Part shown: piece by piece, positions 432 to 24,398 of the stretch
Position numbering within the stretch: the first letter of the stretch is position 1
Layout of the letters: each line of letters begins with the position of its first letter
NCBI GenBank assembly: GCA_905480645.1
Contig: CAJQRC010000022.1
Coordinates: 1 to 46,653, forward strand
Source of the DNA: an uncultured Tateyamaria sp.
GTDB lineage: Bacteria; Pseudomonadota; Alphaproteobacteria; Rhodobacterales; Rhodobacteraceae
Reading direction: 5' to 3'
DNA: 46,653 nt
The notes under the pieces: generated by a model
The model's database searches: none
What the model was told of the DNA's origin: nothing
What the model saw: the letters and a program-made list of their open reading frames with translations, nothing else
Made by a program: the position numbers and the translations under genes

Positions 432-1505
432 TTAAGCTGTGGGCAGTAGAACGGGACCTTCTGGGGCAAAACCGACGGTAACATCAATTCCCACTTCAAG
501 AGGGTGATTAACATCATCTTTAACAGCAAACATAGTTCCAAAGCTGGCTTCTAACGTATATTCCATTCGAACTCCGACATATGTTGCCTTTGCAATTCTT
601 GCTTTAAAGCCTTGTTCTGCACCAATAACTAGTCGCGAGGGTCGGACAGCGAGCTTTGCCGGTCCCGCCGACAAGCCGCGGGAGGGTAGACTATGACGAT
701 ATTCTTCGATAGCTATGACTGCGATTTCATTATTAATGCTTTCTATTCTGCATTGCAGAATATTTGCCTCACCGATAAAATCCGCCACGAATTGATCAAT
801 TGGTGCATCGTAAAGGCTGCGTGGCGTTCCGATTTGGGCGATTGAGGCATTTCGCATCACCACAATTTCATCAGAAACAGCCAGCGCTTCTTCTTGATCA
901 TGGGTTACATAAACAACTGTTAAACCCAAATCTTTTTGGATCGCGCGAATGTCTTCTCGTACTTGCCTGCGCAGTTTTGCGTCCAAATTAGATAAAGGCT
1001 CATCAAATAATAACACTTGGGGCTCCAAAACTAATGCTCGAGCAACAGCCACACGCTGTTGCTGTCCTCCAGATAATTCGCTTGGTAGTCTTGCATCAAA
1101 ACCCCTTAAACCGACAAGATCCAATCCTGCTAACGCTTTTTCGCGAGCTTCCACCTTTGAGAAACCCGAAAAGGCCAAACCATAAGCGACGTTTTCAAGA
1201 ACGCTCATATGTGGAAACAAAGCATATGATTGGAACACCATTGACACATCTCTGTCTGTAGCAGGAAGCTTAGTAACGTCCTGATCCCCGATCATTATCA
1301 TCCCAGACGATGCCATTTCTAAACCTGCAATCATCCGCAGAGTTGTTGTTTTCCCGCATCCTGACGGCCCAAGTAGAGTGACTAATTTCCCCGCTTTGAC
1401 ACTTAGATTAATATTATCTACTGCAACGACATCACGGCCAAAACGCTTAGTGACATTCTCAAAACGGACTGGCGCTGCTTTTCCAACTATACTTGCTTCA
1501 CTCAT
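432..1505 (-). CDS. ABC transporter ATPase, Fe(3+)/phosphosugar-type (FbpC/AfuC family)
   Basis: Cytoplasmic ATPase that powers the importer encoded just upstream; 357 residues from the chosen start, normal for the CUT1/ferric family. Visible motifs are Walker A GPSGCGKTT (about residues 46-54), the Q-loop at about 92, the ABC signature LSGGQ (144-148), Walker B VLLFDEP (164-170) and the switch His at about 202. A TOBE-like C-terminal region follows from about 280. The longest frame begins 24 codons earlier, inside the permease gene. The ATG at 1505 is preferred because an AGGAG precedes it and it gives an 8-bp overlap with the permease stop, typical of translational coupling. Sequence alone does not settle whether the substrate is ferric iron or a phosphorylated sugar/organophosphate. 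Confidence 0.9.
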   Translation of the reverse strand: MSEASIVGKAAPVRFENVTKRFGRDVVAVDNINLSVKAGKLVTLLGPSGCGKTTTLRMIAGLEMASSGMIMIGDQDVTKLPATDRDVSMVFQSYALFPHMSVLENVAYGLAFSGFSKVEAREKALAGLDLVGLRGFDARLPSELSGGQQQRVAVARALVLEPQVLLFDEPLSNLDAKLRRQVREDIRAIQKDLGLTVVYVTHDQEEALAVSDEIVVMRNASIAQIGTPRSLYDAPIDQFVADFIGEANILQCRIESINNEIAVIAIEEYRHSLPSRGLSAGPAKLAVRPSRLVIGAEQGFKARIAKATYVGVRMEYTLEASFGTMFAVKDDVNHPLEVGIDVTVGFAPEGPVLLPTA

Positions 1506-3720
1506 GTTTTTCTCCTGCCGTGAATTGTGTACGCCGCCCAATTTTTGTGCGACCAACCAAAAATTGAAGGAGCCCAACAGCTGCTAACATCACAAAAATC
1601 AATGTCGTTGAGTAGGCGATTGCAAGTCCATAATCATTGTTTTCGACACGGCCAATAATATAGCTAGTTGCCATGTCATACTCGGCTGAAACAAGAAATA
1701 TTACTGCTGATATGGCTGTCATTGCTCGAACGAAGCTATAGACTAAAGCTGCAAGAATTGCGGGTTTTAGCAATGGTAAAATAATTTTATGGAAAGTTTG
1801 CCACGAGTTTGCACCGAGAGTAAGAGAGGACTCGTCCAGCGACTTATCCAATTGGCTCATTGATGCTATGCCTGCTCGTACTCCAACGGGCATATTTCTG
1901 AAAATAAAACTAACAATTAGAATAATACCGGTGCCGGTGATTTCGATTGGTGGTACATTGAACGCCAAAATATAGCTAACACCAATCACAGTGCCGGGGA
2001 TGGCGAAGCTCAGCATAGTGCCGAATTCGAAAGCATTTTTGCCTATAAAATTTTGTCTTGTGAGCAAATAAGCGGTAATCAATCCAACGATTGCTGTGAG
2101 CGGTGCCGCAGCTGCTGCAATGTAAATTGTTGTCCAAAAACTGTCCCAAGCCGAACCAGTCCACCGAATTCCGCTTTCTTCAAACCTCAATGAGAAAGCA
2201 GTGATGTAATGCTTAAAGGTTAGCGTATTATTCACGCCCCAAAGCTCGACAACACTCCCATATAAAATCATTCCGTAAACAACGATGGTGAAAAGGGCCC
2301 AAGCCCCTGCGGTGATAAAAACTGGTATTGCTAGCCCCTTGGGCATTAATGGGTGAACACCAGCATCGCCTTTTCCTGAGACTGTCGTGTAGCTCTTTTT
2401 TCCTAGCCACATACGTTGGGCATAAAATGCTGAAAGAGTGAAAAATAATAAGACTAGAGCTAGGACGGCAGCACGTCCTTGGTCGTATTGTGCGCCAACA
2501 ATTGCAAAAAATATTTCGGTTGATAACACGTCAAAATTACCACCTAAAACTAGGGGATTACCAAAATCTGCCATGCTTTCTATAAAACCTAGTAGAAAAG
2601 CGTTTGCTAATCCAGGCCGCATGAGAGGAAGAGAAATTGTACGAAATGTTTGCCAGCGGTTTGCTCTCAAGGTTTGTGCTGCCTCTTCCATTGAGGGTGA
2701 AACACCTTCAACAACACCAATCAGGACTAGAAAAGCAATCGGAGTGAAAGCGAGTGTCTGCGCAATCAAAATACCAGGTAAGCCGTAAAGCCACCGCGTT
2801 GGTTGGATGCCAAAAATATCAGCAATTATACGGGTAACTGAACCTGAGAGGCCAAAAAGAAGTATCAAAGCCAGGCCAATGACAAACGGTGGGGTGATAA
2901 TTGGAAGAACAGTTAAGGCGCGAAGAGCTCTATTGTATCGGAAGCCTGATCGTGTGACGACAAGTGCAAAAACAAGACCCAGCACTGTTGTTAGACTACC
3001 AACAAGTATTGCTAAGAAAAGAGAATTCCATGCGGCGCCACACCGCCCGCCTGTTAAGCAACCAAGTCCCCAAAGGCGGGAATCAAAGAACTTGGATGCA
3101 AACATAGATGCGGAGTAACTGCCAGTTTCCGTCACAAAAGCGGCTATGAGCATCTTTGCTATTGGGAAAAAGACAAATGTTGTGACTATTACGATTACAC
3201 CGCCGATTGCACTAACGACAAAAACATCGCCATTGACTGCACCGCGCGCAGCGATGCCTTGTGTTAAAAGGAAAAGAAAAGCTGATGCAACTATAAGTGC
3301 TCCAAACCCCATACCAAATTGTCGATCTTCAAGATCTCCAAAAAGTGTTGTTAGCCAGCTAAAATTAAATCCACGGATACCAATTCCAAAGCCTTGAGCA
3401 ATTAAATATGCAAAGCCAAATGCTCCAGATAAAATCAGAACTTTAGCATATGATGGGTCGCTTTTTTTCCGTCCCAGCGCAAAAAGCGATCCAATTAACG
3501 GAATTATAAGGGGTACTAACCAAAGCTTTTCTTTCTGCCCAACAAGGAAAATAGCAGGTGCATAATCTTTATCAGAAGGATATCCATCGAACAACCAATC
3601 TAGGCTAAGAAAGCCGTCTTCCAAACCGTACCAAGGCAGGATTAGGAACCCAATCCACCCGGCGACAATCCAAAATATCAATGCCGGGTGGGTAGTTTTG
3701 TTACTAAAATTATTTCGCAA
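1498..3720 (-). CDS. ABC transporter double permease (FbpB/AfuB family)
   Basis: Inner-membrane permease of 740 residues with two complete transport domains fused in one chain, as in FbpB-type ferric importers and AfuB. Hydrophobic segments run through the whole length. Two EAA loops that dock on the ATPase are visible: EEAAQTLRANRWQTF at about residue 345 and DESSLTLGANSWQTF at about residue 630, each ending in a LPL-x-(R/K)-P motif. It lies 3 bp downstream of the binding-protein gene and overlaps the ATPase gene by 8 bp, so the three genes form one operon. The N-terminal half carries an extra hydrophobic region before the first transport domain. The substrate is inferred only from the family. 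Confidence 0.9.
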   Translation of the reverse strand: MRNNFSNKTTHPALIFWIVAGWIGFLILPWYGLEDGFLSLDWLFDGYPSDKDYAPAIFLVGQKEKLWLVPLIIPLIGSLFALGRKKSDPSYAKVLILSGAFGFAYLIAQGFGIGIRGFNFSWLTTLFGDLEDRQFGMGFGALIVASAFLFLLTQGIAARGAVNGDVFVVSAIGGVIVIVTTFVFFPIAKMLIAAFVTETGSYSASMFASKFFDSRLWGLGCLTGGRCGAAWNSLFLAILVGSLTTVLGLVFALVVTRSGFRYNRALRALTVLPIITPPFVIGLALILLFGLSGSVTRIIADIFGIQPTRWLYGLPGILIAQTLAFTPIAFLVLIGVVEGVSPSMEEAAQTLRANRWQTFRTISLPLMRPGLANAFLLGFIESMADFGNPLVLGGNFDVLSTEIFFAIVGAQYDQGRAAVLALVLLFFTLSAFYAQRMWLGKKSYTTVSGKGDAGVHPLMPKGLAIPVFITAGAWALFTIVVYGMILYGSVVELWGVNNTLTFKHYITAFSLRFEESGIRWTGSAWDSFWTTIYIAAAAAPLTAIVGLITAYLLTRQNFIGKNAFEFGTMLSFAIPGTVIGVSYILAFNVPPIEITGTGIILIVSFIFRNMPVGVRAGIASMSQLDKSLDESSLTLGANSWQTFHKIILPLLKPAILAALVYSFVRAMTAISAVIFLVSAEYDMATSYIIGRVENNDYGLAIAYSTTLIFVMLAAVGLLQFLVGRTKIGRRTQFTAGEKHE

Positions 3721-3723
3721 GTT

Positions 3724-4749
3724 TTATTGCGGCAGTGTTGAGACGTCTTCGTCCCATTTCTTTAGTAAACGCTTGCGTTCAGCGGATGAGCCATAGGTTT
3801 TGAAGTCGTAATCAATAAGAGCGATTGTCGACATGTCTGGCGCAGACGGTGACGTATTGGCGCTTTTGTTAGACGGTACTTGAAAAGCATTTACCTCTAA
3901 CGCAAGGTTCTGTGCGTCGGTAGAAAGGGCCCAGTCGTAAAACTTCTTGGCCTCATCCATATTTCGCGCTCCATCAATTATTGACATGGACCCAATTTCA
4001 TAACCCGTACCTTCACATGGGGCTACCACTTTGACTGGGAAGCCGGAGACAGCCTGTTTTACCGCATCGTGCATGAAGACGATCCCAATTGTATTTTCGC
4101 CACGTCCAGCGGCCTTGATTGGAGCTGAACCGGATTTGGTATACTGGTTGATATTAGAATGAAGACCTTTCATGAATTCGAAGCCTTCGTCCTCACCAAA
4201 AAGTTGTACCATAGACGCTAGCGTTGTGTAGGCTGTTCCCGAAGAGTTTGGGTTAGCCATTTGAACATGGCCTTTGTACTCTGGTTTTAGCAGGTCTTTC
4301 CAACAAGAGGGTTCAGGCAGATTGTTCGCTGCAAGTAGATCTGTGTTGTAGCCGTACCCAAGAGCACCTGAATAAATTCCTATTGTTTTGTCTCCGGCAC
4401 TTGTTGCCTGGCTAATAGCCCAGTCATGCAGTTGGTCACGCATTGGTGAGACGTAAGCAGCTGTCAGATTCTCTTCTGCAGCTTGTAAGTGTGGGTCACC
4501 TGTGCCGCCCCACCAGACATCTCCCTTCGGGTTGGCAGACTCAGCTTTGATTTGTGCAAAAGTCTCACCTGAAGATTTACGTGTCATGTTTACATCAATG
4601 CCGGTTGCGTCTTCAAAGCTGCGGGCCATAAGTTGACACCAATCTTCTTGTGCTGAGCAATATAGTGTAAGCTTGTCAGCGCAGGCAGCTGAAACACCAG
4701 CTGACAGCGCAACAATCGAACCAATAGCTAGTTTACTAATTTTTTTCAT
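3724..4749 (-). CDS. Periplasmic substrate-binding protein (FbpA/AfuA family)
   Basis: Secreted binding protein of the importer, 341 residues. It starts with a classical Sec signal peptide (MKKISKLAIGSIVALSAGVSA, cleavage near residue 23) and the mature part begins ADKLTLYCSAQEDW. A GTGYEIGSMSII segment resembles AfuA-like and aminoethylphosphonate-type proteins, and I see no adjacent Tyr-Tyr pair like that of classical FbpA. AfuABC, long annotated as iron transporters, are known to import hexose phosphates, so a phosphorylated organic substrate is as likely as Fe(III). The start at 4749 is preferred over one 8 codons upstream because GGGAGG lies directly before it. First gene of the operon. 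Confidence 0.88.
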   Translation of the reverse strand: MKKISKLAIGSIVALSAGVSAACADKLTLYCSAQEDWCQLMARSFEDATGIDVNMTRKSSGETFAQIKAESANPKGDVWWGGTGDPHLQAAEENLTAAYVSPMRDQLHDWAISQATSAGDKTIGIYSGALGYGYNTDLLAANNLPEPSCWKDLLKPEYKGHVQMANPNSSGTAYTTLASMVQLFGEDEGFEFMKGLHSNINQYTKSGSAPIKAAGRGENTIGIVFMHDAVKQAVSGFPVKVVAPCEGTGYEIGSMSIIDGARNMDEAKKFYDWALSTDAQNLALEVNAFQVPSNKSANTSPSAPDMSTIALIDYDFKTYGSSAERKRLLKKWDEDVSTLPQ

Positions 4750-5284
4750 TCTGTTCCTCCCAGAAGTAACCAAATTGGGTCATTTTTGCCGTCGGTCCGC
4801 CGTTTTTTTCTTCAAGTCAAAAAAGAACCGATTATTTCAGACGGTTGCGACGATATAAGTTTAATTAGCTTAGACAAATCCTTAAATTTGAAAAGAGGCT
4901 TTTTTGTAAGTATAATTTGTGCCAATCTGGCAGAGTTCCGCCAGCCATCAAATCGCTAAAAATTGTACTTAAATGTGGTGGAGTTTATGGGCTCTATATA
5001 GGGTGAGATGACTTTACATTTTGACAGTGGGATCATTAACCAAGAAGATGTTGGGAAAGTGTGAATGCTTTGGCCTCATTGTAAGATGATTTGGCAGCCT
5101 ACTCGGTATTCACAAGGTGCAGATACAATACGAGGGTTAGTGTCTTTGCTTAATTTTTTTGTAGAGGGCCTCGATTTGGTCCATGCTCAACTTCGGCAGC
5201 GAAACACTGGTGATCATATATAGAAGAAAAATACTGCGACCATCCTTGGATGGTCGTAGAGATCTTTAGAAAGAATAAACTTAG
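4750..5284. other. Divergent intergenic region between two operons
   Basis: About 535 bp separating the minus-strand importer operon from the plus-strand ThDP-enzyme operon. It should hold both promoters. It is AT-rich, with several short T runs, and no convincing coding sequence or clean consensus promoter is visible. The only marked structure is the hairpin at 5237-5256, listed separately. Confidence 0.6.
5237..5256 (+). promoter_or_regulatory. Perfect 9-bp inverted repeat in the leader of the ThDP-enzyme operon
   Basis: CGACCATCC and GGATGGTCG are separated by only TT, and the repeat ends 28 bp before the ATG at 5285. There is no following T run, so it is not a standard terminator. As DNA it could be an operator; as RNA it could form a 5' leader hairpin. 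The ribosome-binding site of the downstream gene is weak (AGAAAG), so a leader structure could matter for translation. Function is inferred. Confidence 0.45.
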
Positions 5285-7003
5285 ATGAGCAAACCAAAAA
5301 AAATTAGAGGTGGTACTTTACTAGCCCGTGCACTCAAGAACAAAGGAGTTGAACATGTGTTTACTCTTGCTGGAGGGTTTTGCAACCCCGCGCTTGAGGG
5401 TTTCATGGAATGCCAAATGCCTGTTATTAACACGCCGCATGAACAAATTGCGGGACACCTCGCCGATGGTCATGCGCGGATTAATCGCAAGCCGACCGTC
5501 TGTCTGGTGGGGCCTGAAGGGTTTGCAAATGCGGTACCAGCTATGCTGGAAGCCGCCGGGGAACGCAGCCCGGTAATATTTGTAACTGGATCATCCACGT
5601 TAAAGCGACAAGGGGCAGGAGGTTTCAAGGAAATCGACGACGTGGCAATTGCAGCTCCTTTAGTGAAATATTCGATGCAGATCACAGATGGAGAACGCAT
5701 AAGTGAATTTGTCAATCGGGCATGGATGGCTGCGACAACGGGCTATCCGGGGCCGGTGCACATATCACTGCCAGTCGACATTATGTTTTCTTCTTTCGCG
5801 CCTGATGCAGGCCTTCATGAACGTCCATTTAATCGCACTGATCGTCTCATCCCGCGTGCATGGCCTGACCCTTTAGCGCTAAAATCTATTCTTGATTTAG
5901 TATGTAAAGCGGAGCGTCCTGTGATTATTGGGGGGCACGGCGTCTGGTGGTCAAAGTCTGAAGACAAACTGGAGGCTGTAGGTAAGCATCTACGCCTACC
6001 AATTTTTAACGTACCCTATCATTCCAAACTGCTGGGCGAAGAATGTGAGGCCTACATGGGACTTGCAGATTTCCATCAATATACACCTTCAAGGCTCGCC
6101 ATCCATGAAGCAGATTTGATTTTGGTAGTTGGTGGACGGCTAGATAACCAAATGAATTTTGGTAACCCTCCATTTTTTACTAAAGATCAGACATTGGTTT
6201 GTATCAACGGTAGCCATGAGGAACTGGAGAACAATCAGGCCGCTGATGAGGTGTTACTCTCAGACCCGGGTGCATTTTTGGAAGCTTTACTATGTGTTGG
6301 AAAATATTGGTCGGACTGGTTTGATTTGCAAAAGGAACGCAGAGCTACTTGGGTAAATGAATGGTATGATCATATTGCTGAAGAAACGGCGAAGCCAGGT
6401 AAGATGCATCCGCTACAACTATCGCTGGACGTACAAGAACAGATGGACGATGAAGATTGGCTGATTTTCGATGGTGGCAATACGCATTTTTGGTCTGAAA
6501 TTGCAGTGAACATGGCTGGCTGGCGCGGTCAAAAATTAGGTGGTATAATGCACCCTGGAAATTATTCCCTACTTGGGGTCGGTGTATCTTTTGGAGTGTC
6601 GGCTAAGTCTGTGCATCCTGATAGAAACGTCGTGGTAATTTCAGGGGATGGAGCATTTTTGTCAGGTGGGCTGTCAATTGAATCCGCTTTTCAAGATAAT
6701 CTACCAATCACAATTGTTATCGATAATAACGGCGGCCTCGATTGCATAAGTCAACAACAAGAACGCTTATTTGAAAACGGCAAACATTTTGCTACTGATT
6801 TTCGCGATATTCCGTTTCATAAAATGTGTGAAGGGTTAGGTGGACATGGTGAATTAGTCGAGGAACGTGATCAACTCGCACCTGCTCTTCAGCGTGCTAT
6901 GGCCAGTGGGAAAACGGCTATTGTGAATGTAAAATGTCGTGGAGTAATAAGCCCGATTGTAGCAGCCACATCGGACAAAAGAGACAAGGCTTCGATTGAA
7001 TAA
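5285..7003 (+). CDS. Thiamine-diphosphate-dependent enzyme, acetolactate-synthase/2-hydroxyacyl-lyase type
   Basis: A 572-residue member of the ThDP family with the PYR, central and PP domains in order. The catalytic Glu that activates the cofactor is present (E53 in PHEQIAGHLADGHAR), which argues against glyoxylate carboligase. The ThDP/Mg motif starts with GDG at residues 454-456 and ends in NN 24 residues later. A GFKEIDDVAIAAP segment near residue 115 matches the GAFQE-D-V region of ALS-like and 2-hydroxyacyl-CoA-lyase-like enzymes. It probably makes or breaks a carbon-carbon bond next to a keto group. It is not obviously housekeeping IlvB, because no small subunit follows. Its stop overlaps the next start (TAATG), so it leads a three-gene block. 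Substrate unknown. Confidence 0.85.
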   Translation: MSKPKKIRGGTLLARALKNKGVEHVFTLAGGFCNPALEGFMECQMPVINTPHEQIAGHLADGHARINRKPTVCLVGPEGFANAVPAMLEAAGERSPVIFVTGSSTLKRQGAGGFKEIDDVAIAAPLVKYSMQITDGERISEFVNRAWMAATTGYPGPVHISLPVDIMFSSFAPDAGLHERPFNRTDRLIPRAWPDPLALKSILDLVCKAERPVIIGGHGVWWSKSEDKLEAVGKHLRLPIFNVPYHSKLLGEECEAYMGLADFHQYTPSRLAIHEADLILVVGGRLDNQMNFGNPPFFTKDQTLVCINGSHEELENNQAADEVLLSDPGAFLEALLCVGKYWSDWFDLQKERRATWVNEWYDHIAEETAKPGKMHPLQLSLDVQEQMDDEDWLIFDGGNTHFWSEIAVNMAGWRGQKLGGIMHPGNYSLLGVGVSFGVSAKSVHPDRNVVVISGDGAFLSGGLSIESAFQDNLPITIVIDNNGGLDCISQQQERLFENGKHFATDFRDIPFHKMCEGLGGHGELVEERDQLAPALQRAMASGKTAIVNVKCRGVISPIVAATSDKRDKASIE

Positions 7004-7338
7004 TGGCGATACTTACCTCACATACTCTTAACGGTGCAGATGGCACCCACGCTGGGAATATTACCGTTACCTTGCGTAACCTAATAACGGGTGAAACTAT
7101 TCTAAAATCAAAAATGGATACGGGAGGCCGGCTGTCTGAACAGATTGACGCAAGTATAATAGATCAGAACGCTACATACGAACTGGTTTTCGATACTGCG
7201 TCTTACTGGGTAGAGCGCAACACGAAAGCAACCGTTGAACAAATAGCACTGCGTTTTGGTATGCCAGATCGAGAGGGTTCTTATCACATGCCGGTAATAC
7301 TTAATCCCAACTCTTATTCTATGTGGTGTTCTGCCTGA
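7003..7338 (+). CDS. 5-hydroxyisourate hydrolase-like (transthyretin-related) protein with altered C-terminal motif
   Basis: An 111-residue protein of the transthyretin-related family, about the usual HIUase length. N-terminal SHTLNGADG holds a candidate catalytic His (H7), TGGRL holds the Arg (R43), and SYHMPVILNP holds the second His (H95) in the family's YHVPLLLSP position. True HIU hydrolases end in the tetrapeptide YRGS, but this protein ends WCSA (residues 108-111), so the last three active-site positions are replaced. The ring-opening chemistry may be kept on a different cyclic substrate, or activity may be lost. No urate oxidase or OHCU decarboxylase gene lies nearby. It overlaps both neighbours by 1 bp, which suggests a role in the same pathway rather than in purine breakdown. 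Confidence 0.75.
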   Translation: MAILTSHTLNGADGTHAGNITVTLRNLITGETILKSKMDTGGRLSEQIDASIIDQNATYELVFDTASYWVERNTKATVEQIALRFGMPDREGSYHMPVILNPNSYSMWCSA

Positions 7339-8447
7339 TGGATGGTTTGAACATGTCACGACGCTTAAGGCGCACGCCCTATACAGACCGAGTTGAGCAA
7401 TCAGGAGTGCGCGGTTTCTCTGTGGTTAATCACATGCTTTTGCCTAAGGCTTTCGGCTCAACAGTTGAGGAGGATTACTGGCATTTACGCAAACATGTAC
7501 AGATTTGGGACGTTTCTTGCCAACGTCAGGTACTGATCAATGGTCTTGATGCTGCTGCTCTTTTGCAATGGATGACGCCGCGCGATATCTCAAAAGCAAA
7601 GGTTGGTGACTGCTTCTATATCCCCATAATCGATCCGAAAGCAGGATTGATTAATGATCCAGTTATGCTGAAATTAGATGAGGATCGTTTTTGGTTGTCC
7701 ATCGCAGACAGTGATGTGTTACTTTATGCGATGGGACTTGCGTTAGGTCGTGGACTTGATATCGAATTATCAGAGCCTGACGTTTCGCCTTTGGCAATAC
7801 AAGGGCCAAAAGCTGAGGCTCTATTGGTTGATTTATTTGGTGAACAGGTTCGTGAAATTGGTTTCTTTAAATTTGGCTGGATTGATTTTGAGGGAACAAA
7901 ACAACTAATCGCTCGGTCCGGATACTCCCGTCAGGGTGGCTATGAAATTTATCTCGAAGGTGGGCATCTGGGTTCAGCACTCTGGGATGCTATTTGGGAT
8001 GCAGGACAAGCATATGGTATTAAACCTGGTTATCCAAACCTCATTGAGCGGATTGAAGGCGGACTACTTTCTCTTGGTAACGAAATGACTCGAGACAATA
8101 ACCCATTAGAAATCGGATTGGGTAAGTTTTGTACTTTGGATGGGTCAATAGATTATATCGGATGCGATGAACTTCAAAAGATTGCTGGACAGGGGGTTCA
8201 GCGAGAAATTCGTGGTATTGTTTTTGATGGTGACCGATGTCCTGTCTGCTCAAAACTCTGGCCGGTAATGGTGGGTAGCAAACAAATCGGAGGAGTGACA
8301 TCTGCCGTTTGGTCACCAAGACTTAAGCGTAATATTGGTTTATCTATGATTGATCGAGACTATTGGAAAGCGGGACAAGTCGTCACCGTACATTCTGAGG
8401 ATGGCGAGGTTCGACCCGGAGAAGTTTCAATGTTGCCATTCTCTTAG
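7338..8447 (+). CDS. GcvT-family aminomethyltransferase, DmdA-like
   Basis: 369 residues with the GcvT fold that moves a methyl or aminomethyl group to tetrahydrofolate. The N-terminus SRRLRRTPYTDRVEQSGVRG, then NHMLLPKAF, YWHLRKHVQIWDVSCQRQV, FWLSIADSD, VSPLAIQGPKA, ARSGYSRQGGYEIY and GNEMTRDNNPLEIGLGKF, closely follow the layout of DMSP demethylase (DmdA) and its non-DMSP relatives. The start at 7338 overlaps the preceding stop as TGATG; an ATG at 7353 is also possible. The ThDP enzyme and HIUase-like neighbours are not part of known DMSP demethylation. The substrate may therefore be another methylated sulfonium or amine. Family confidence is high, substrate confidence low. Confidence 0.85.
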   Translation: MDGLNMSRRLRRTPYTDRVEQSGVRGFSVVNHMLLPKAFGSTVEEDYWHLRKHVQIWDVSCQRQVLINGLDAAALLQWMTPRDISKAKVGDCFYIPIIDPKAGLINDPVMLKLDEDRFWLSIADSDVLLYAMGLALGRGLDIELSEPDVSPLAIQGPKAEALLVDLFGEQVREIGFFKFGWIDFEGTKQLIARSGYSRQGGYEIYLEGGHLGSALWDAIWDAGQAYGIKPGYPNLIERIEGGLLSLGNEMTRDNNPLEIGLGKFCTLDGSIDYIGCDELQKIAGQGVQREIRGIVFDGDRCPVCSKLWPVMVGSKQIGGVTSAVWSPRLKRNIGLSMIDRDYWKAGQVVTVHSEDGEVRPGEVSMLPFS

Positions 8448-8759
8448 TTAGCTGCCGCCTGGTAGTGTATTTCGAGTACACTTCTATCAGACTAGAGCGC
8501 TAGGCTCTGCGCTTAACTTTGCCATACGTTTGATAAATTTTGATCACACCGATGTAACGCAAGATAGCATATATACAACAATAATAGATACTTAGCGCTT
8601 TTGATAAAACCACTTATCCTTAATAAAGGCACAGACTAAACAGGCTGTAAAAGGTGCGTTGCAAACCGTAGAATTCATTTTAAGCATAAATTAAGATACA
8701 TTACTTGTCCAAGGAGTTAGACGCTTAGATTATGTTTTTATTGGATGCGGAAAGCCAGA
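8448..8759. other. Gap between the two catabolic gene blocks
   Basis: About 310 bp without a recognisable gene. Just after the GcvT-like stop there is a weak hairpin (AGTGTA at 8464-8469 with TACACT at 8477-8482) and a second short one (AGAGC near 8495 with GCTCT). Neither has a good T tract. A promoter for the MttB block probably lies here, but no clean consensus stands out. The two blocks could still be cotranscribed. Confidence 0.5.
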
Positions 8760-10313
8760 ATGGTAAATATAAACAAAAACCCACCCAAACGTTCTCGTTT
8801 TGGTAATAGGCGTCAAAGAATTGAGCGGAGCCAAGATGAGTCAAAAACTCGCATCTTACCTATGTCAGGTAGGTTGAACCCGCTAACAGAAGACAATCTT
8901 TCTCGCATTCATGAAACATCCTTAGAAATTCTTGAACGTGTCGGGTTAAGTGATGCACCAGCAAGCATGATCAAGTTGGTCACATCCAACGGTGGTTCAT
9001 TAAACGATGAAGGGCGTCTTTGCTTTCCAGCACTGCTGGTTGAAAAGATGCTCGCTGAATTGAGGCGCAACTTCACTTTGTTTGGACGCGGCGGTGATAA
9101 TGATCTTTATTTAACCGGTGCTAAAGTACACGTAGGAACGGGTGGTGCGTCGCCCAAAATTATGGACTTTCAGGATGGGAGCTATCGCACTGCTGTGCTT
9201 GCTGATCTTTATGATGCTGCACGCTTGGTGGACTCACTCAATCATATTCACTTTTTTTCACGTTCGATGATTGCCAGTGATTTAGAAAACTTGCGTGATC
9301 TCGACATTAATACTGTATTTGCATCTCTGGCGGGGACACAAAAACACGTTATGGTCAGTGCAAGCCATCCGGCACACGTTCGCGACATAGCCGATATGTG
9401 TTATTTAGTTGCAGGTTCTGAAGGCGCCTTTCGTACCAAGCCCTTCTTGTCTCTCAACATCAATCATGTGGTGCCGCCGCTGCGGTTTGACCCGGATGCC
9501 TGCGAAGTAATAGCTGAAGCCGTAAAAGTCGGTATTCCTGTGATGGTAAATACATTTGGTCAAATGGGAGCTTCCAGCCCTGTAACGATTGCTGGTTGTT
9601 TGGCGCAAACCAATGCGGAAACTTTAGCTGGGATGGTATTCGTCTGGGCCTTGAATGCAAACGCGCCTGCTATTTATGGCGCACGCCCTATGGTAACTGA
9701 TTTGCGCTCTGGCGGAATGGCTGGTGGAGGAGGCGAGCAAGCGATGCTTACAGCAGCGGCTGCACAAATTGCTCGTTACTATGGTTTGCCGAATTCTACC
9801 ATTGCTGGAGCTACTGATAGCAAGTTAGCTGATGCTCAATCAGGGTTTGAAAAGGCGCTGACAGTCACAACTGCAGCGCAGGCGGGTGCAAATCTGATTA
9901 CACAAGCCGCTGGCACACAAGCTGGTCTACTAGCAACTTCTTTTGAAGCTTATGTGATCGACAATGATATGTTAGGAGCCATTTTGAAATCATGTGGTGA
10001 AATTGAGGTTGGTGATGAGACCCTTTCGGTTGAAACTGTTGCTCAGGTCGTCCGAGGTGAAGGCCACTTTTTGGGGCATCCAGAAACTTATGCGCGAATG
10101 AAATCTGATTTTATTTATCCCGTGCATGCAGATCGACAGGCACCGGAGGCTTGGTTGGCAAGCGGTGCCCAATCGATCAACGTCTCAGCGAGAAAAACTG
10201 TCGAGCAAACACTTGCCAATCATTATCCAAAATATTTTTCCAATCAAACAGATAAAGAGATCCGTTCGAAGTTTGATATTTACTTGCCTAAATCAAGGAT
10301 GCAATCCAAATGA
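8760..10313 (+). CDS. Trimethylamine methyltransferase family (MttB superfamily, non-pyrrolysine) protein
   Basis: 517 residues from the chosen ATG, which has GGAAAG before it; an ATG 15 bp upstream lacks a site. The family transfers a methyl group from a quaternary or tertiary amine to a corrinoid protein. The sequence has the typical basic N-terminus, then LNPLTEDNLSRIHETSLEILERVGL, a GTGGASPKI segment near residue 125, and a GGMAGGGGEQAMLTAAAAQIARYYGLP segment. No in-frame TAG occurs, so it is of the non-pyrrolysine type, as in glycine-betaine methyltransferase MtgB. No corrinoid-binding MttC-like gene or reactivating enzyme is found in the window. Its TGA overlaps the next ATG by 4 bp. 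The exact methyl donor is unknown. Confidence 0.85.
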   Translation: MVNINKNPPKRSRFGNRRQRIERSQDESKTRILPMSGRLNPLTEDNLSRIHETSLEILERVGLSDAPASMIKLVTSNGGSLNDEGRLCFPALLVEKMLAELRRNFTLFGRGGDNDLYLTGAKVHVGTGGASPKIMDFQDGSYRTAVLADLYDAARLVDSLNHIHFFSRSMIASDLENLRDLDINTVFASLAGTQKHVMVSASHPAHVRDIADMCYLVAGSEGAFRTKPFLSLNINHVVPPLRFDPDACEVIAEAVKVGIPVMVNTFGQMGASSPVTIAGCLAQTNAETLAGMVFVWALNANAPAIYGARPMVTDLRSGGMAGGGGEQAMLTAAAAQIARYYGLPNSTIAGATDSKLADAQSGFEKALTVTTAAQAGANLITQAAGTQAGLLATSFEAYVIDNDMLGAILKSCGEIEVGDETLSVETVAQVVRGEGHFLGHPETYARMKSDFIYPVHADRQAPEAWLASGAQSINVSARKTVEQTLANHYPKYFSNQTDKEIRSKFDIYLPKSRMQSK

Positions 10314-11242
10314 AAATTGCAGTTATTGGCGTTGGTGCGATGGGATCTATCTATGCTGCCCTATTAGCAGACGCAGGTCATGAAGTATGGGCTGTGGATA
10401 CGTGGGATGCTCATGTCGCTTCAATTAATAACACTGGTTTACGTGTGCAAGGAGCTAGTGGGGATCGTATTGTTAGGACGATCAGAGCAACTACACAGAT
10501 TTCGGACATTGGTGTGTGCGATCTTTGTTTGATTGCTACTAAGGCTGCAGGAGTTGGTACTGCTGCTCGGGATGCAGCAGGGGTCATTGGTCAAGATTCG
10601 ATTGTCCTGACAATTCAAAACGGTCTTGGTTCAGGTGAGCGTATTGCCGAGTATATTCCAACTGAAAACGTCTTGCTTGGTGTAGCTGATGGCTTTGGAG
10701 CTTCCATGATAGCGCCGGGTCATGCGCATCACAATAATATGAAACTCATCCGTATTGGTGAGATTGGGGGCGGCATGACTGACCGTTTACGTGGTTTAGA
10801 GAATGTGTGGCAGGAAGCTGGTTTTAATGCCAAAGCTTATGCAAATATTACTCAACTAATCTGGGAAAAGTTTCTTTGTAATGTGACGTTCAGCGCGCCT
10901 TGTACCGTATTTAACGAGGCCGTGGGTGCATTAATGAATGAACCGGACCATTGGAAGATTGCACTCGGTGCTATGTGCGAGGCATATACGATCGCGCAAG
11001 TTAAAGGAGTTGAATTGTCGTTTGAGGATCCTGTTGCTTACGTTACGGCCTTTGGTGCAAGCATGCCAGAGGCTCGACCTTCAATGTTGTTGGATCATAT
11101 GGCAGGTCGTATTTCAGAATTGGATGCTATCAATGGGGTAGTCCCAAAAATGGGTCGTGAAATGGCTCTCCCCACTCCTTATAATGATATGTTGACTGCG
11201 ATTCTGAAGCAGCGCGAAGCTTTTTTTAGAGATCAAGTATGA
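10310..11242 (+). CDS. 2-dehydropantoate 2-reductase-like NAD(P) dehydrogenase (PanE/ApbA family)
   Basis: 310 residues with an N-terminal Rossmann fold, IAVIGVGAMGSIYAALLADAG (GxGxxG at residues 7-12), the QNGLGSGE segment of the family near residue 105, and the conserved catalytic Lys in WEKFLCNVTFS (K187). Classical PanE reduces ketopantoate to pantoate. Here the gene is locked between the MttB-like and FAH-fold genes by 4-bp overlaps on both sides. It more likely reduces or oxidises a 2-keto/2-hydroxy acid of the catabolic pathway. No other pantothenate gene is in the window. Confidence 0.85.
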   Translation: MKIAVIGVGAMGSIYAALLADAGHEVWAVDTWDAHVASINNTGLRVQGASGDRIVRTIRATTQISDIGVCDLCLIATKAAGVGTAARDAAGVIGQDSIVLTIQNGLGSGERIAEYIPTENVLLGVADGFGASMIAPGHAHHNNMKLIRIGEIGGGMTDRLRGLENVWQEAGFNAKAYANITQLIWEKFLCNVTFSAPCTVFNEAVGALMNEPDHWKIALGAMCEAYTIAQVKGVELSFEDPVAYVTAFGASMPEARPSMLLDHMAGRISELDAINGVVPKMGREMALPTPYNDMLTAILKQREAFFRDQV

Positions 11243-12084
11243 ATATTGGATCGTTTTTATATGATTTCAAATCTCTTTATGGCGTATTCGCGAATGGAAT
11301 GGTTCGACCGGCTTCTCCAAAGCTCATTGCGCAATATTCCACGCTGTACGATCTTATTTTTGCAGGTGACGTCGATTACTTGCGCGATAAAACACTTTTG
11401 TCGGCCCCAATTCCCATTGAGAACATTAAGTTCCTCGAACCAATCCTTAATTCTGGCAAAGTTATATGCATTGGTTTGAACTATTCCAAATTGCACCCTG
11501 TTGATGGTGTTGTGCCTCCCAATCCAGAAAATATGATTTTGTTTGGAAAAGAGCGTGACACTCTCGTTGCCCATAAAGACGTTTTGAAAATTCCATGTGA
11601 TGAGCCTGCTCTGAGTTTCGACTATGAAGGTGAAATTGCAGCTGTTATCGGAAAACCTGCACGAAATGTTACACGTAAAGAGGCATTGGATTATGTGCTG
11701 GGCTATACTGCTTTCAACGATGGTTCGGTCCGAGAATGGCAAAAACACTCAATCTATGCGGGAAAAAACTTTGCAAATTCGAGTGCTTGGGGCCCATGGA
11801 TTACAACGACAGATGCGCTGCGTTCAATTGAGGAGTTACACTTGAGCGTTGCATTGAATGGCAATGTCGTCCAATCGGCATACGGCAGTGAGATGATTTT
11901 TTCAGTAGCAGAGCAAATTTCCTATATATCCTCACTCTTTTGCCTGCAGCCGGGTGATATCATTGCTACTGGGTCGCCCGATGGGACTGGGGCCAGTAAA
12001 ACGCCAAAGCGATTCCTTAAAATCGGTGATTGCCTATCAATAACCGTTTCAGGCATCGGTACGCTAGAGAATGCTTGCACTTGA
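11239..12084 (+). CDS. Fumarylacetoacetate hydrolase-fold protein
   Basis: 281 residues. The C-terminal FAH domain shows the metal ligands E130 and E132 (DYEGEIAAVIG) and D161 (FNDGSVREWQKH). The SPDGTGASKTPKRFLKIGD stretch corresponds to the TPGGVG...P...LKPGD region of the family. These enzymes hydrolyse or decarboxylate beta-keto or acylpyruvate-type intermediates with Mg2+. The usual NYxxH lid motif is shifted here to NYSKLH (N81, H86), with one extra residue before the His. It overlaps the preceding gene by 4 bp and ends the second block. Role in the pathway inferred: a late C-C bond cleavage or decarboxylation. Confidence 0.85.
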   Translation: MNIGSFLYDFKSLYGVFANGMVRPASPKLIAQYSTLYDLIFAGDVDYLRDKTLLSAPIPIENIKFLEPILNSGKVICIGLNYSKLHPVDGVVPPNPENMILFGKERDTLVAHKDVLKIPCDEPALSFDYEGEIAAVIGKPARNVTRKEALDYVLGYTAFNDGSVREWQKHSIYAGKNFANSSAWGPWITTTDALRSIEELHLSVALNGNVVQSAYGSEMIFSVAEQISYISSLFCLQPGDIIATGSPDGTGASKTPKRFLKIGDCLSITVSGIGTLENACT

Positions 12085-14433: not shown

Positions 14434-15420
14434 ATGGTAAAGGAACGTTTGAGTGTTGTCGTAACGCGACGGTTGCCAACCGAGGTAGAAACTCGACTGA
14501 GTGAACTGTTTGATGTCCGGTTGCGAGAAGATGATACCCCTATGGACCGTGCCGAGTTGGTGGAAGCTACTAAAACCGCTGATGTGCTTGTCCCGACAAT
14601 CACGGATATAGTTGACGCATCGGTCATTGGGCAGGCTGGTGATCGTCTTAAGCTTATTTCAAACTATGGCGCCGGTGTTGATAATATTGATGTATCCACA
14701 GCGCGTCAGCGTGGTATTCTTGTATCCAATACTCCCGGTGTTTTGACTGATGATACTGCAGATATGACTATGGCGCTCATTCTGGCAGTATCGCGGCGTA
14801 TTCCTGAAGGCATGCGAGAAATGCAGGCCGGGCATTGGAATGGATGGGCACCCACTGCATTTCTTGGTGGACGCGTTGGTGGAAGACGTTTGGGGATACT
14901 CGGAATGGGTCGAATTGGACAGGCGGTGGCGCGCCGAGCCAAAGCATTTGGTATGCAGGTACACTATCATAACCGTAGACGATTGCGCACTGAAACAGAG
15001 CAGGAGTTGGAAGCTTCATATTGGGATAGTTTAGATCAAATGGTATCACGAGTGGATATCTTGAGCATAAACTGTCCACATACGCCCTCCACGTTTCATT
15101 TGATGAATGCGCGCCGGCTTAAGTTGATGAAGTCGGATTCTGTTATTGTGAATACTTCACGTGGTGAAGTTATTGATGAAAACGCATTGACCCGAATGTT
15201 GCGGGCTGGTGAACTTGCGGGCGCAGGACTGGATGTTTACGAGCAGGGAACCAAAGTGAACCCGCGTTTGCGTGAGCTAAAAAATGTAGTTCTGCTCCCA
15301 CATATGGGTTCGGCTACGAGAGAAAGTCGCGTGGAAATGGGTGAGAAGGTTATCATCAACATTAAAACATTCGATGATGGTCACCGCCCACCAGATCAGG
15401 TTGTGCCATCAATGTTATAA
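14434..15420 (+). CDS. D-isomer-specific 2-hydroxyacid dehydrogenase (glyoxylate/hydroxypyruvate reductase type)
   Basis: 328 residues, full length for the family. The NAD(P) Rossmann motif is GILGMGRIGQAVARRAKAFG (glycines at 157, 159, 162). The catalytic triad is visible as R243 (VNTSRGEVIDE), E270 (GLDVYE) and H290 (LLPHMGSAT). It likely reduces glyoxylate or hydroxypyruvate in the cytoplasm, which would fit glycine/serine metabolism downstream of methylamine oxidation. GGGAGG lies 7 bases before the ATG. No partner gene is coupled; the gamma-glutamyltransferase follows 89 bp later. Confidence 0.9.
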   Translation: MVKERLSVVVTRRLPTEVETRLSELFDVRLREDDTPMDRAELVEATKTADVLVPTITDIVDASVIGQAGDRLKLISNYGAGVDNIDVSTARQRGILVSNTPGVLTDDTADMTMALILAVSRRIPEGMREMQAGHWNGWAPTAFLGGRVGGRRLGILGMGRIGQAVARRAKAFGMQVHYHNRRRLRTETEQELEASYWDSLDQMVSRVDILSINCPHTPSTFHLMNARRLKLMKSDSVIVNTSRGEVIDENALTRMLRAGELAGAGLDVYEQGTKVNPRLRELKNVVLLPHMGSATRESRVEMGEKVIINIKTFDDGHRPPDQVVPSML

Positions 15421-15509
15421 AGGCGACCTGTAGGATTGAATTAAACCAAATTAATAGTTTTGGTAAGAGACTTATTTTTGCTAAAATTTTTTATATAGTG
15501 GAGGCATCA

Positions 15510-17291: not shown

Positions 17292-17317
17292 CAACAGTGT
17301 TGATGAAGGGAAAACTT

Positions 17318-18721
17318 ATGGTGCAATCAATAGACTTGCCGCGTAATGAAAGTGGCATTGCCACGGCGTTGGGCGTGCTGAAGCAGAAATTTGGTGACCG
17401 TTTTCATACTGGATATGCTATTCGGGAACAGCATGCACATTCGACAACATGGATTAAAGCTCAAATTCCAGACGCTGTTGTTTTCCCGCGGTCAACTGCT
17501 GAAGTGTCGGACATAGTTAAGGTATGCTCTACGCACAATGTTCCTATTATTCCATTTGGGACGGGGACTTCGCTAGAGGGCCATGTGAATGCGCCTGCCG
17601 GGGGCATCTCAGTTGATTTGACACAAATGGATGCTGTTCTGGCTGTGCACGCTGAAGATCTTGATTGTATTGTTCAACCAGGAGTGACTCGCGAGCAACT
17701 AAACAAACATTTAAAGGATTTGGGTTTGTTTTTTCCAATAGACCCTGGCGCTAATGCTTCGTTAGGCGGAATGGCATCCACCCGCGCATCTGGGACTAAC
17801 GCTGTGCGATATGGCACTATGAAAGACAATGTTATTGCGCTTGAGGCAGTAATGGCGGACGGCCGTGTTATTCGCACAGCACAGAGAGCCAAGAAAACTT
17901 CAGCCGGTTATAACATGACACAGCTTTTGGTGGGTTCCGAAGGAACCTTGGGACTTATTACAGAGATCACATTAAAGTTGCAGGGTATTCCTGAGGCAAT
18001 CATGGCCGCCCGTATGTCATTTCCATCAATTGACGCTGCTTGTCAGGCTGTGATGACCACTATTCAATATGGAATTCCTGTTGCCCGTATAGAGTTGATG
18101 GATGAACTAAATATACGAGCAGCCAATGCTTACTCCGGCCTCGTTTTGCCTGAGGTTCCATTGCTGCTGGTTGAATTTCATGGTTCGACGCAAAGCGTAA
18201 ACGAGCAGACTGAGTTGTTTGCATCAATTGCTGAAGATGTAGGCGGCACAGACTTTGAGGCTACGTCTACCACTGAGGAACGCAATAAACTGTGGCAGGC
18301 GCGGCATGATCTTTACTGGGCAACGCTCCAACTGCGTCCCGGGGCGCAAGGGATATCTACCGATGTTTGTGTCCCGATTTCACGTCTGGCCAAGGCGGTT
18401 ACCGGAGCACAGAATAAAGCTGCTGAGCTAGACCTTTTGTCGCCAATTGTCGGTCACGTTGGAGATGGTAATTTTCACTGTTTAGTCTTGATCGACATGG
18501 AAGATGCTGACGAAGTAGCGCGTGCGGAGGCATTTGTAGCGTGGCTGGCTGATGAGGCAATCGCAGCGGACGGCACTTGTACAGGTGAGCATGGAATTGG
18601 TCAGGGTAAAGTACCATATTTGGTAAAAGAATTGGGTACGACAACTGAATTCATGGCTGCTATTAAAGGAGCGCTGGATCCACAGAACATAATGAACCCA
18701 GGAAAAATATTCAGCCGTTAG
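17318..18721 (+). CDS. FAD-linked oxidase, GlcD/D-lactate dehydrogenase type
   Basis: 467 residues: an FAD_binding_4 domain with PFGTGTSLEGHVNAPAGGISVDL near residue 85 and PGANASLGGMASTRASGTNAVRYG near residue 145, then an FAD-oxidase C domain with GHVGDGNFHCLVL and CTGEHGIGQGK near the C-terminus, whose histidines are active-site residues of the family. It resembles LDHD-type D-2-hydroxyacid dehydrogenases that oxidise D-lactate or glycolate and pass electrons to cytochrome c or quinone. The start at 17318 has AAGGG upstream; an ATG at 17303 is possible. It begins 27 bp after the gamma-glutamyltransferase stop, so the two are probably cotranscribed. Confidence 0.88.
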   Translation: MVQSIDLPRNESGIATALGVLKQKFGDRFHTGYAIREQHAHSTTWIKAQIPDAVVFPRSTAEVSDIVKVCSTHNVPIIPFGTGTSLEGHVNAPAGGISVDLTQMDAVLAVHAEDLDCIVQPGVTREQLNKHLKDLGLFFPIDPGANASLGGMASTRASGTNAVRYGTMKDNVIALEAVMADGRVIRTAQRAKKTSAGYNMTQLLVGSEGTLGLITEITLKLQGIPEAIMAARMSFPSIDAACQAVMTTIQYGIPVARIELMDELNIRAANAYSGLVLPEVPLLLVEFHGSTQSVNEQTELFASIAEDVGGTDFEATSTTEERNKLWQARHDLYWATLQLRPGAQGISTDVCVPISRLAKAVTGAQNKAAELDLLSPIVGHVGDGNFHCLVLIDMEDADEVARAEAFVAWLADEAIAADGTCTGEHGIGQGKVPYLVKELGTTTEFMAAIKGALDPQNIMNPGKIFSR

Positions 18722-18864
18722 CTTAGAAAAAGCATGCAGGTAATTTAGTATAACGCATATCTGAGGGAAGGTCGTTTTTCTACTGCGACGGGTCGGGTGT
18801 CTTACGCGATTAAATTCTTTGGACTATTAGAAATAGGCCAAGTCTTGGTGAAGGGAATCGCGCT

Positions 18865-21370: not shown

Positions 21371-22039
21371 CTAATGCATGTTATAATCTTTTGAAGTTGT
21401 AAATATCAGAGCCAAGTTATTGGCGGGCATGTTGACTACCTCAAAGGTTGTCAAGCCTGCTAGGCGCGCCCATGCGATTACGTCATCACGATCTTTATAG
21501 CCAATCTGTCTGTTTGCATTCTGCAATTCAGCGTGGAATACGGCATCGCCATTACTTATGGTTTTACCTTCCCTTAAAAACGGCCCATAAATTATAAATG
21601 TCCCATTTACAGTGAGTGCTTTCGCAGTTTCGGATAAAAGCACCCTCGTGGCTTTCTTCGAGATTAGGTGCAAAAGGTTTATTGTTATTATAAAATCATA
21701 AGTCTTAGATTTTTGAGCCCACCCTTGAGCACAGGCATCAAGTAGGATTGGAATGGTAAGATTATTTAATGACGCTTCCGCACAATAGGCATCGATACTT
21801 ACGAGACGCTCACTTGATATTTCAGAAGGGGTCCAAAGCAGATCTGGAATGGCTTTAGCAAACTCTACAATATGCTGGCCTGTTCCACTCGCTATCTCGA
21901 GTATTTGACCTTTTTCTGGGGCAATGCGTACCAGTAGTTTGGTTAATGCACCTACGTTTTTTGCCGCGGACGGTGCATAAAGCTTGTCACCGGCTGATTT
22001 GTTTACGATTGAGGCTGATGTTGGCAATCTTGATGTCAT
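21371..22039 (-). CDS. DUF938 SAM-dependent methyltransferase
   Basis: 222 residues with a class I methyltransferase fold. The SAM-binding motif is ILEIASGTGQHIVEFAKAIPDL near residues 62-83, followed by the family-typical WTPSE, and by FIITINLLHLISKKAT near residue 125. The proteins of this family are uncharacterised; methyl acceptor unknown. It overlaps the preceding oxidase gene by 4 bp (ATGA), so the two form an operon that converges on the dehydrogenase gene with only 4 bp between stops. Confidence 0.85.
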   Translation of the reverse strand: MTSRLPTSASIVNKSAGDKLYAPSAAKNVGALTKLLVRIAPEKGQILEIASGTGQHIVEFAKAIPDLLWTPSEISSERLVSIDAYCAEASLNNLTIPILLDACAQGWAQKSKTYDFIITINLLHLISKKATRVLLSETAKALTVNGTFIIYGPFLREGKTISNGDAVFHAELQNANRQIGYKDRDDVIAWARLAGLTTFEVVNMPANNLALIFTTSKDYNMH

Positions 22040-23094: not shown

Positions 23095-23222
23095 TTTCCC
23101 AATCCAAAATTTGGCAAATTTTTATTGCTAAGCCAAGTGATTTTTAAACTTCTCTGTAAATTAGGCTGATGATTATAAAGTTAATATGAGGAACGTAGCC
23201 TTATTAGGCATCTTATTTAAAT

Positions 23223-23253
23223 AAAAAAGCCCCGCAAAGAGCGGAGCTTTTTT
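23223..23253 (-). terminator. Strong intrinsic terminator, usable in both directions
   Basis: AAAAAAGCCCCGC and GCGGAGCTTTTTT flank the loop AAAGA, with one C-A mismatch. A T run on the right strand and an A run on the left make it work on both strands. It lies 21 bp beyond the stop of the BMP binding-protein gene and so ends the nucleoside-importer operon. Confidence 0.9.
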
Positions 23254-23273
23254 AAAATTTTTAACTGATAAAT

Positions 23274-24353: not shown

Positions 24354-24375
24354 ATTAAGGTTCCCCCGTTTGTTG

Positions 24376-24391: not shown

Positions 24392-24398
24392 AATGCCT

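Follow-up and report, generated by a model that had tools for sequence, protein, structure and literature searches.

Background

The best-described relatives of the genes considered here belong to the bacterial metabolism of dimethylsulfoniopropionate (DMSP), and in particular to the DMSP demethylation pathway (DmdA, DmdB, DmdC, DmdD/AcuH and methanethiol oxidase). Others come from families such as 5-hydroxyisourate hydrolase (HIUase), whose catalytic residues are His/Arg/His, and MttB, whose members of known substrate act on methylated amines. In this work we analyze a six-gene cluster at positions 5,285 to 12,084 of a 46,653-nucleotide stretch of DNA, hereafter the window, from an uncultured Tateyamaria sp. 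of the alphaproteobacterial family Rhodobacteraceae (contig CAJQRC010000022.1, assembly GCA_905480645.1). The cluster resembles the DMSP demethylation pathway in its DmdA-family demethylase and, in several related loci, in neighbouring acyl-CoA dehydrogenase, hydratase and methanethiol-oxidase-family genes, but differs from it in combining a separate DmdA clade with a 2-hydroxyacid dehydrogenase, a thiamine diphosphate (ThDP) enzyme and an HIUase-like protein. It is a real and conserved cluster, probably an undescribed catabolic one of the sulfonium type. The best explanation we can offer, held tentatively and at slightly less than even confidence, is that it breaks down a 2-hydroxy acid bearing a dimethylsulfonio (or methylthio) group, the likeliest being 4-dimethylsulfonio-2-hydroxybutyrate (DMSHB) or the demethylated 4-methylthio-2-hydroxybutyrate (MTHB).

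A second relative is the DsyGD system, described in PMC11306096 as a system for DMSP synthesis. It has DMSHB as the proposed common metabolite, and its ureidoglycolate-lyase-like DsyD places a ureide-type fold in sulfonium chemistry, comparable to the HIUase-like protein here; the direction proposed for our cluster is, by contrast, mainly breakdown. According to that source, DMSHB decarboxylase activity in L. aggregata and Rhizobium has yet to be traced to particular enzymes, and R. pomeroyi is unable to make DMSP from DMSHB. A ThDP step in Streptomyces DMSP synthesis, also considered, was not borne out by PMC12542666, which names an S-methylmethionine decarboxylase, an aminotransferase and an aldehyde dehydrogenase for that synthesis. 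An earlier note on this DNA, made from the letters alone, had stated that no described pathway has this set of genes; our literature search likewise found no match, returning no paper on DMSHB breakdown or on the gene set, with most subscription papers outside its reach. The search also gave no lead for homarine, and no ring-opening enzyme appeared among the neighbours scanned.

Results

The cluster is composed of two blocks of three genes:

5285..7003, + strand: ThDP-dependent enzyme, 572 aa (Pfam TPP_enzyme N/M/C)
7003..7338, + strand: HIUase-like protein, 111 aa (Pfam Transthyretin/HIUase)
7338..8447, + strand: DmdA-like demethylase (Pfam GCV_T; NCBIfam DMSP demethylase)
8745..10313, + strand: MttB-family methyltransferase (Pfam MTTB)
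10310..11242, + strand: PanE/ApbA-family 2-oxoacid/2-hydroxyacid oxidoreductase (Pfam ApbA)
11239..12084, + strand: FAH-family hydrolase/decarboxylase of 2-oxo acids (Pfam FAA_hydrolase)

All six open reading frames lie on the plus strand where the earlier note had placed them, with the overlaps of 1-4 bp that it reported, and its six family labels agree with the Pfam assignments. Read directly, the junctions of the first block are TAATG (7001-7005) and TGATG (7336-7340), each a 1-bp overlap, and those of the second are ATGA (10310-10313 and 11239-11242), each a 4-bp overlap; a spacer of 297 bp separates the blocks. The start of the DmdA-like gene was taken as the ATG at 7338, the mechanical call being a GTG at 7323.

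Conservation was assessed through a profile search of genome contigs with an alignment of the ThDP protein, the best 80 of 505 relatives providing 80 loci. Together with nine first loci, and after removal of four duplicates (L078, L080, L088 and L099), these make up a set of 85 of 89 loci. Frequencies hold for loci whose ThDP gene is closely related to that of the window (73-92% identical in that contig search) and count loci rather than genomes, L107 and L109 representing one strain. Counts of neighbour families come from tblastn searches at identity thresholds of our own choosing, and some contigs end too soon to reveal neighbours; Pfam and NCBIfam scans of neighbours covered a selection of recurrent families. 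Gene order was scored where the sequence downstream of the ThDP gene reached 600 bp (84 loci) or 1.7 kb (78 loci), and where the sequence upstream reached 1.3 kb (77 loci).

The ThDP, HIUase-like and DmdA-like genes form a conserved core. They are adjacent, co-directional and in that order in 62 of 78 loci, spanning alpha- and gammaproteobacteria, and the HIUase-like gene directly follows the ThDP gene in 76 of 84; overall, the HIUase-like gene is present in 78 and the DmdA-like gene in 67 of the 85 loci. All six genes occur together in seven of the 85 loci besides the window, within 6.5-10.1 kb and in varying order and orientation, the exact order of the window recurring in L116 and L119. The co-occurrence within about 10 kb that the earlier note proposed to look for thus exists, and the six genes are neither adjacent in this genome only nor each a match to a characterized enzyme of a separate known pathway. 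The idea of a single conserved unit survives in part, since the core trio is kept across marine bacteria but MttB, PanE and FAH behave as a separable second module.

The cluster-type HIUase-like protein was found in 10 of 198 genomes of the window's family, the window's own included, two of them (G090 and G172) being weaker matches accepted on their neighbourhood. The ThDP enzyme is present in six of 385 genomes of the class, again counting the window's own; the other five copies are 70-73% identical, and the search, which scored at most three candidates per genome, yielded no further match at E 1e-150. Plasmids gave no match to the ThDP protein at E<=1e-120. Contig records with the ThDP gene include ones assigned to Sulfitobacter, Planktotalea, Planktomarina, Nioella, Labrenzia, SAR116, Kiloniella and Rhizobiaceae and, among gammaproteobacteria, to Granulosicoccaceae, Oceanospirillaceae and a Chromatiales symbiont of Bugula (L065). 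Should the route proposed below be right, the Planktomarina, SAR116, Nioella, Planktotalea and Sulfitobacter records suggest that flux through it could matter in surface water.

Locus organization also shows departures from this pattern. Five loci (L065, L091, L095, L097 and L113) hold the ThDP gene with Tct importers and without the HIUase-like and DmdA-like genes. The 21.7-kb stretch of L093 (Labrenzia sp. DG1229) contains the ThDP/HIUase-like pair twice and lacks a DmdA-like gene, one pair lying beside GlcD, TauD and Tct genes and the other beside a flavin mononucleotide (FMN) dehydrogenase. In two SAR116 single cells (L071 and L074; the copies scanned are those of L071), PhyH oxygenases precede the ThDP and HIUase-like genes, which are followed by a Nuo51-type and a molybdopterin oxidoreductase.

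Orthologs of the ThDP enzyme are 64-92% identical. The protein shares three ThDP domains and an invariant His-Glu at 52-53 with acetolactate synthase (ALS), oxalyl-CoA decarboxylase, 2-hydroxyacyl-CoA lyase and benzaldehyde lyase, but is only about 22-27% identical to its nearest solved structures (Foldseek), and among the matches listed (25 of 51 NCBIfam families) it falls below every cut-off, the best listed scoring 264 against 587. The structure model is weak (pLDDT 73.8, TM score about 0.5) and was taken only to locate the nearest superfamily members. On these comparisons the enzyme appears as a subfamily of its own within the ALS/oxalyl-CoA decarboxylase/benzaldehyde lyase superfamily, presumably acting as a 2-oxoacid decarboxylase or lyase.

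The HIUase-like protein retains the fold, size and catalytic trio of HIUase (PF00576). Its predicted structure (pLDDT 96.6) finds HIUase-type proteins as best PDB matches at a TM score of about 0.86, and His7, Arg43 and His95 are invariant in the alignment of 79 members. It differs from HIUase in gene context, in a score of 61 bits against the TIGR02962 equivalog cut-off of 87.45, and in its C terminus: the YRGS tail is found in none of the 79 members, all of which instead carry W108 and S110 in a W-x-S motif after the HxP motif. All 79 also have His16, where the two HIUases used for comparison carry Pro. The same genome encodes an ordinary, YRGS-bearing HIUase on contig C2. The W-x-S family lies outside true HIUase while keeping its fold and catalytic trio, and is likely a working hydrolase with a changed substrate. 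The ring opening of a cyclic substrate envisaged in the earlier note loses its footing because the YRGS tail is absent from all 79 members, although hydrolysis is still likely.

The DmdA-like protein scores 546 bits against the NCBIfam DMSP demethylase cut-off of 410, the ordinary copy of the same genome, which adjoins acuI on contig C18, scoring 680. It is 47% identical to P. ubique DmdA and 48% to the ordinary copy, those two being 44% identical to each other. In a tree with 24 of the 75 members of its group of reading frames, rooted uncertainly on a single long-branch outgroup, the DmdA-like copies form one clade (ultrafast bootstrap 100; the 24 cluster copies plus L196, also a cluster copy), nested in the DMSP-demethylase family and outside both the Roseobacter and the P. 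ubique/Pelagibacter DmdA clades; the deep order of the tree is weak (48-87). The position of the DMSP-binding tryptophan, which by our own mapping we take to be W197 of the P. ubique chain, holds Tyr in the window copy, and fails as a discriminator because the ordinary DmdA of the same genome also carries Tyr. By the same mapping, this tryptophan is W171 in the alignment of PMC7487153. Judged by its family, methyl transfer by the DmdA-like protein would depend on tetrahydrofolate. A further DmdA-family gene is found in eight of the 10 cluster-bearing genomes versus 74 of 188 others (p=0.014), an association that marine habitat may confound. With an ordinary DmdA, an ordinary HIUase and a higher-scoring MttB elsewhere in the genome, the cluster is built of re-tooled paralogs.

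A 2-hydroxyacid dehydrogenase of any of three unrelated kinds accompanies the core in 61 of 85 loci: an FMN enzyme in 58, an Ldh2-type (NAD) enzyme in seven and a GlcD-type (FAD) D-2-hydroxyacid dehydrogenase in four, replacing or joining one another beside the ThDP enzyme. The FMN gene lies directly upstream of the ThDP gene in 56 of 77 loci. Importers are represented by a peptide-type ATP-binding cassette (ABC) binding protein in 18, TRAP components in 14 and Tct components in 12 of the 85. PMC5395565 describes DMSHB as a dimethylsulfonio 2-hydroxy acid of algae, and the combination of 2-hydroxyacid dehydrogenases beside the ThDP enzyme, carboxylate importers and a compound of this type in algae makes DMSHB or MTHB the leading candidate.

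Sulfur signals recur around the core. Genes of the SBP56 (methanethiol oxidase) family are found in 10 of 85 loci (nine of the 55 loci of at least 15 kb), on varying sides and strands, in records of Planktotalea, Silicimonas, Pelagibius, Nitratireductor, Rhodospirillales, Rhodobacteraceae and unplaced alphaproteobacteria, and often with ferredoxin, CoA-binding protein, rhodanese, acyl-CoA dehydrogenase, hydratase or thiolase genes; in L116 and L119 the SBP56 gene is divergent, some 240 bp upstream of the cluster. Among the sequences tested, from nine of these 10 loci, the cysteine motifs GWNACS and HTVHC are present in all nine and GGDCT in eight, the ninth (L107) having an incomplete frame. 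These are motifs of the cluster-1 Rhodobacteraceae methanethiol oxidases tested in PMC10936201, which reports that two such oxidases consume methanethiol and yield sulfane sulfur. The window's genome has two SBP56 genes, both with all three motifs, on other contigs, and 24 of 61 genomes of the family have some SBP56 gene. A cupin of the DMSP-lyase family, constituting one small gene family, stands beside the DmdA-like gene in L042, L043 and L045; the L042 copy, the one scanned with Pfam, scores 52.7 bits against PF16867 DMSP_lyase (cut-off 27), and no NCBIfam model matched the L042 and L045 copies. Acyl-CoA dehydrogenase occurs in eight, enoyl-CoA hydratase in six and rhodanese in six of the 85 loci. 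Where the earlier note left the choice between a nitrogen and a sulfur compound open, DmdA-family membership together with the methanethiol-oxidase-family and DMSP-lyase-family neighbours favours sulfur.

SBP56 genes were also seen away from the core. On contig C26 of the window's genome (L181, 37000-56900) an SBP56 gene, ferredoxin, CoA-binding protein, rhodanese and a third DmdA homolog lie in a row, and in L183 and L187 SBP56 genes lie near a third-copy-type DmdA homolog with hydratase and acyl-CoA ligase genes; these sets possibly represent another sulfonium pathway. The stretches fetched for L184-L186, L188 and L189 contain SBP56, and no DmdA homolog was seen in them. The SBP56 oxidase module travels with DmdA-type demethylases often, not always.

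Genes of the second module are less frequent: MttB occurs in 13, PanE in 10 and FAH in seven of the 85 loci. MttB also appears without the core in the stretches fetched: L156 has it together with PanE and FAH, L157, L158 and L160 together with PanE, and L159 together with FAH; outside the window's family, MttB and an S51 peptidase adjoin the core in L168 and L170. Close MttB homologs (at least 52% identity) are found in five of the 10 cluster-bearing genomes of the family versus five of the 188 that lack the cluster (p=2e-5; leaving out the genome of the window, 2e-4), on a different contig from the core in G024 and G186. MttB, PanE and FAH are a linked but separable module, enriched in core-bearing genomes. 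The window MttB spans PF06253, the family of trimethylamine and glycine betaine methyltransferases, over nearly its full length, but differs from pyrrolysine-type MttB in an open frame without in-frame TAG and in scoring 348 bits against the trimethylamine methyltransferase cut-off of 525 (TIGR02369). It scores 395 bits versus 765 for the copy on contig C41 of the same genome, as expected of a divergent paralog. PanE, at 226 bits, lies above its subfamily cut-off (TIGR00745, 141), and B12-binding PF02310 had no match on the window's contig. An S51 peptidase is present in eight of the 13 MttB loci (L033, L066 and L115 among them), and a peptide-type ABC importer often accompanies it, a hint that the substrate could be peptide-like or conjugated.

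Discussion

From the identities of the genes and their conservation, paralogy, clade membership, active-site residues and neighbour associations we infer the following route, including its substrate, the sequence of its steps and all of its catalytic activities. DMSHB or MTHB would be imported by the ABC importer in the window, and by TRAP, Tct or peptide-type ABC systems elsewhere, and oxidized to the 2-oxo acid by a 2-hydroxyacid dehydrogenase of FMN, FAD or NAD type depending on the species. The ThDP enzyme would decarboxylate this 2-oxo acid, the DmdA-like enzyme would pass one S-methyl group to tetrahydrofolate, and the HIUase-like protein would hydrolyze a pathway intermediate. The resulting methylthio acid may then proceed through acyl-CoA dehydrogenase and hydratase steps to methanethiol, to be handled by the SBP56 oxidase and rhodanese. 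As a companion, MttB, PanE and FAH may carry out corrinoid demethylation followed by redox and cleavage of the same or a related methylated 2-oxo acid. The catabolic route for a methylated compound proposed in the earlier note holds up insofar as the enzymes are conserved, catabolic-looking and suited to methyl transfer; of its further elements, nitrogen is less favoured than sulfur, and ring opening of a cyclic substrate lacks support. If the route proposed here is correct, marine bacteria consume a second algal sulfonium (or its methylthio form) by a route other than DMSP demethylation or cleavage, one that yields methanethiol. The cluster would then define two enzyme subfamilies, one of ThDP enzymes and one HIUase-like, that are new and readily recognized by marker residues. 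It would also provide candidate genes for DMSHB turnover, for which PMC11306096 reports a gap in knowledge at the decarboxylase step.

Several observations weigh against the breakdown of DMSHB or MTHB. The HIUase-like step has no evident place in DMSHB chemistry, and MttB, PanE and FAH suit a quaternary-ammonium or other 2-oxo acid at least equally well. In 16 of the 78 loci the ThDP gene has no DmdA-like gene after it (L110 has one, divergent), so the substrate of the ThDP enzyme need not be methylated, and the nearest relatives of the DmdA-like clade, at a weak support of 79, are lower-scoring homologs, including the genome's third copy, rather than the DmdA clades. An FMN dehydrogenase is missing next to the window's ThDP gene, the best homolog in its genome being 49% identical and on contig C38, although the GlcD-type gene at 17297-18721 may stand in for it. 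Around the cluster of the window no sulfur gene was recognized. SBP56 is missing from 75 of the 85 loci, some of them on short contigs, and the SBP56 proteins scanned score far below the MtoX equivalog cut-off of 650 (157.8 in L073 and 152.7 for the genome's own C26 copy).

The core and the MttB-PanE-FAH module could also be two unrelated neighbouring pathways, an arrangement compatible with the explanation favoured for the core and one that we consider unlikely, though with appreciable weight. It would account for the 297-bp gap between the blocks, for the L156-L160 stretches, where MttB occurs with PanE and/or FAH and without the core, and for the core standing alone in most loci; it sits poorly with the recurrence of all six genes within 6.5-10.1 kb in differing orders and orientations, with MttB adjoining the core in L168 and L170, and with the enrichment of close MttB homologs in core-bearing genomes, in G024 and G186 on another contig. 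A nitrogen betaine strikes us as rather improbable. A quaternary ammonium 2-hydroxy acid would in that case lose N-methyl groups to MttB and another to tetrahydrofolate through the DmdA-like protein, with ThDP, PanE and FAH enzymes breaking the chain. Methylated amines are indicated by the PDB names of MttB-family structures and by PMC12478193, which has glycine betaine as an MttB-family substrate, and the presence of MttB in 13 of 85 loci and, beyond the window's family, in L168 and L170 would fit, as would the demethylating dehydrogenase at 18865-21366; against this, the DmdA-like protein exceeds the DMSP-demethylase cut-off and falls inside that family's tree, its neighbours include methanethiol-oxidase-family, rhodanese and DMSP-lyase-family genes, and MttB is absent from 72 of the 85 loci whereas the DmdA-like gene is present in 67.

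More doubtful is a conversion of DMSHB to DMSP by oxidation and ThDP-dependent decarboxylation, in which the ThDP enzyme would be the missing DMSHB decarboxylase, serving synthesis or a step before DMSP breakdown. The decarboxylase gap in L. aggregata and Rhizobium and the inability of R. pomeroyi to make DMSP from DMSHB, as reported in PMC11306096, leave room for such an enzyme, as do the paired ThDP/HIUase-like copies without DmdA-like gene in the 21.7 kb of L093 and the DMSP-lyase-family cupin adjoining the core in three loci, but the DmdA-like gene is present in 67 of the 85 loci, and no aldehyde dehydrogenase was found among the scanned neighbours, no search having been aimed at one. A bolder version, to which we likewise grant an outside chance, has a W-x-S hydrolase drawn from purine catabolism joining the dehydrogenase and the ThDP enzyme as the missing machinery for dismantling DMSHB, which would make DMSP in strains without the DmdA-like gene (e.g. 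Labrenzia) and otherwise open a DMSP-bypassing route into the algal DMSP precursor pool. Breakdown of a methylated purine or ureide, with the HIUase-like protein opening the ring, draws on the HIUase fold and the retained His/Arg/His, yet is very improbable and was rejected on the loss of the HIUase tail: YRGS is replaced in all 79 members by invariant W-x-S and His16, an ordinary YRGS enzyme resides on C2 of the same genome, and neither urate oxidase, OHCU decarboxylase nor allantoinase was among the neighbours scanned, a selection of recurrent families.

Additional observations

Three further features of the window were drawn upon above:

432..4773, - strand: divergent ABC importer (ATPase, fused permease and binding protein) of 2-aminoethylphosphonate/iron type, upstream of the cluster
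17297..18721, + strand: GlcD-type FAD-linked D-2-hydroxyacid oxidase, 49% identical to genes found close to the core in L081 and L085
18865-21366, + strand: DAO+GCV_T demethylating dehydrogenase (dimethylglycine/sarcosine dehydrogenase-like), downstream of the cluster

The position of the importer makes it a possible uptake system for the cluster. Promoter-like and terminator-like sites in the window were fewer than the shuffle means. Other neighbours of the core across the 85 loci are a LysR regulator (42), an S51 peptidase (15) and a Cys/Met pyridoxal phosphate enzyme (4). After the cluster and on its strand, positions 14434-21366 of the window encode a D-isomer 2-hydroxyacid dehydrogenase, a gamma-glutamyltransferase, the GlcD-type oxidase and the DAO+GCV_T enzyme. 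On the minus strand, positions 22036-28177 encode a DAO oxidoreductase and ABC transporter parts, one of them akin to a putative vitamin B6 permease.

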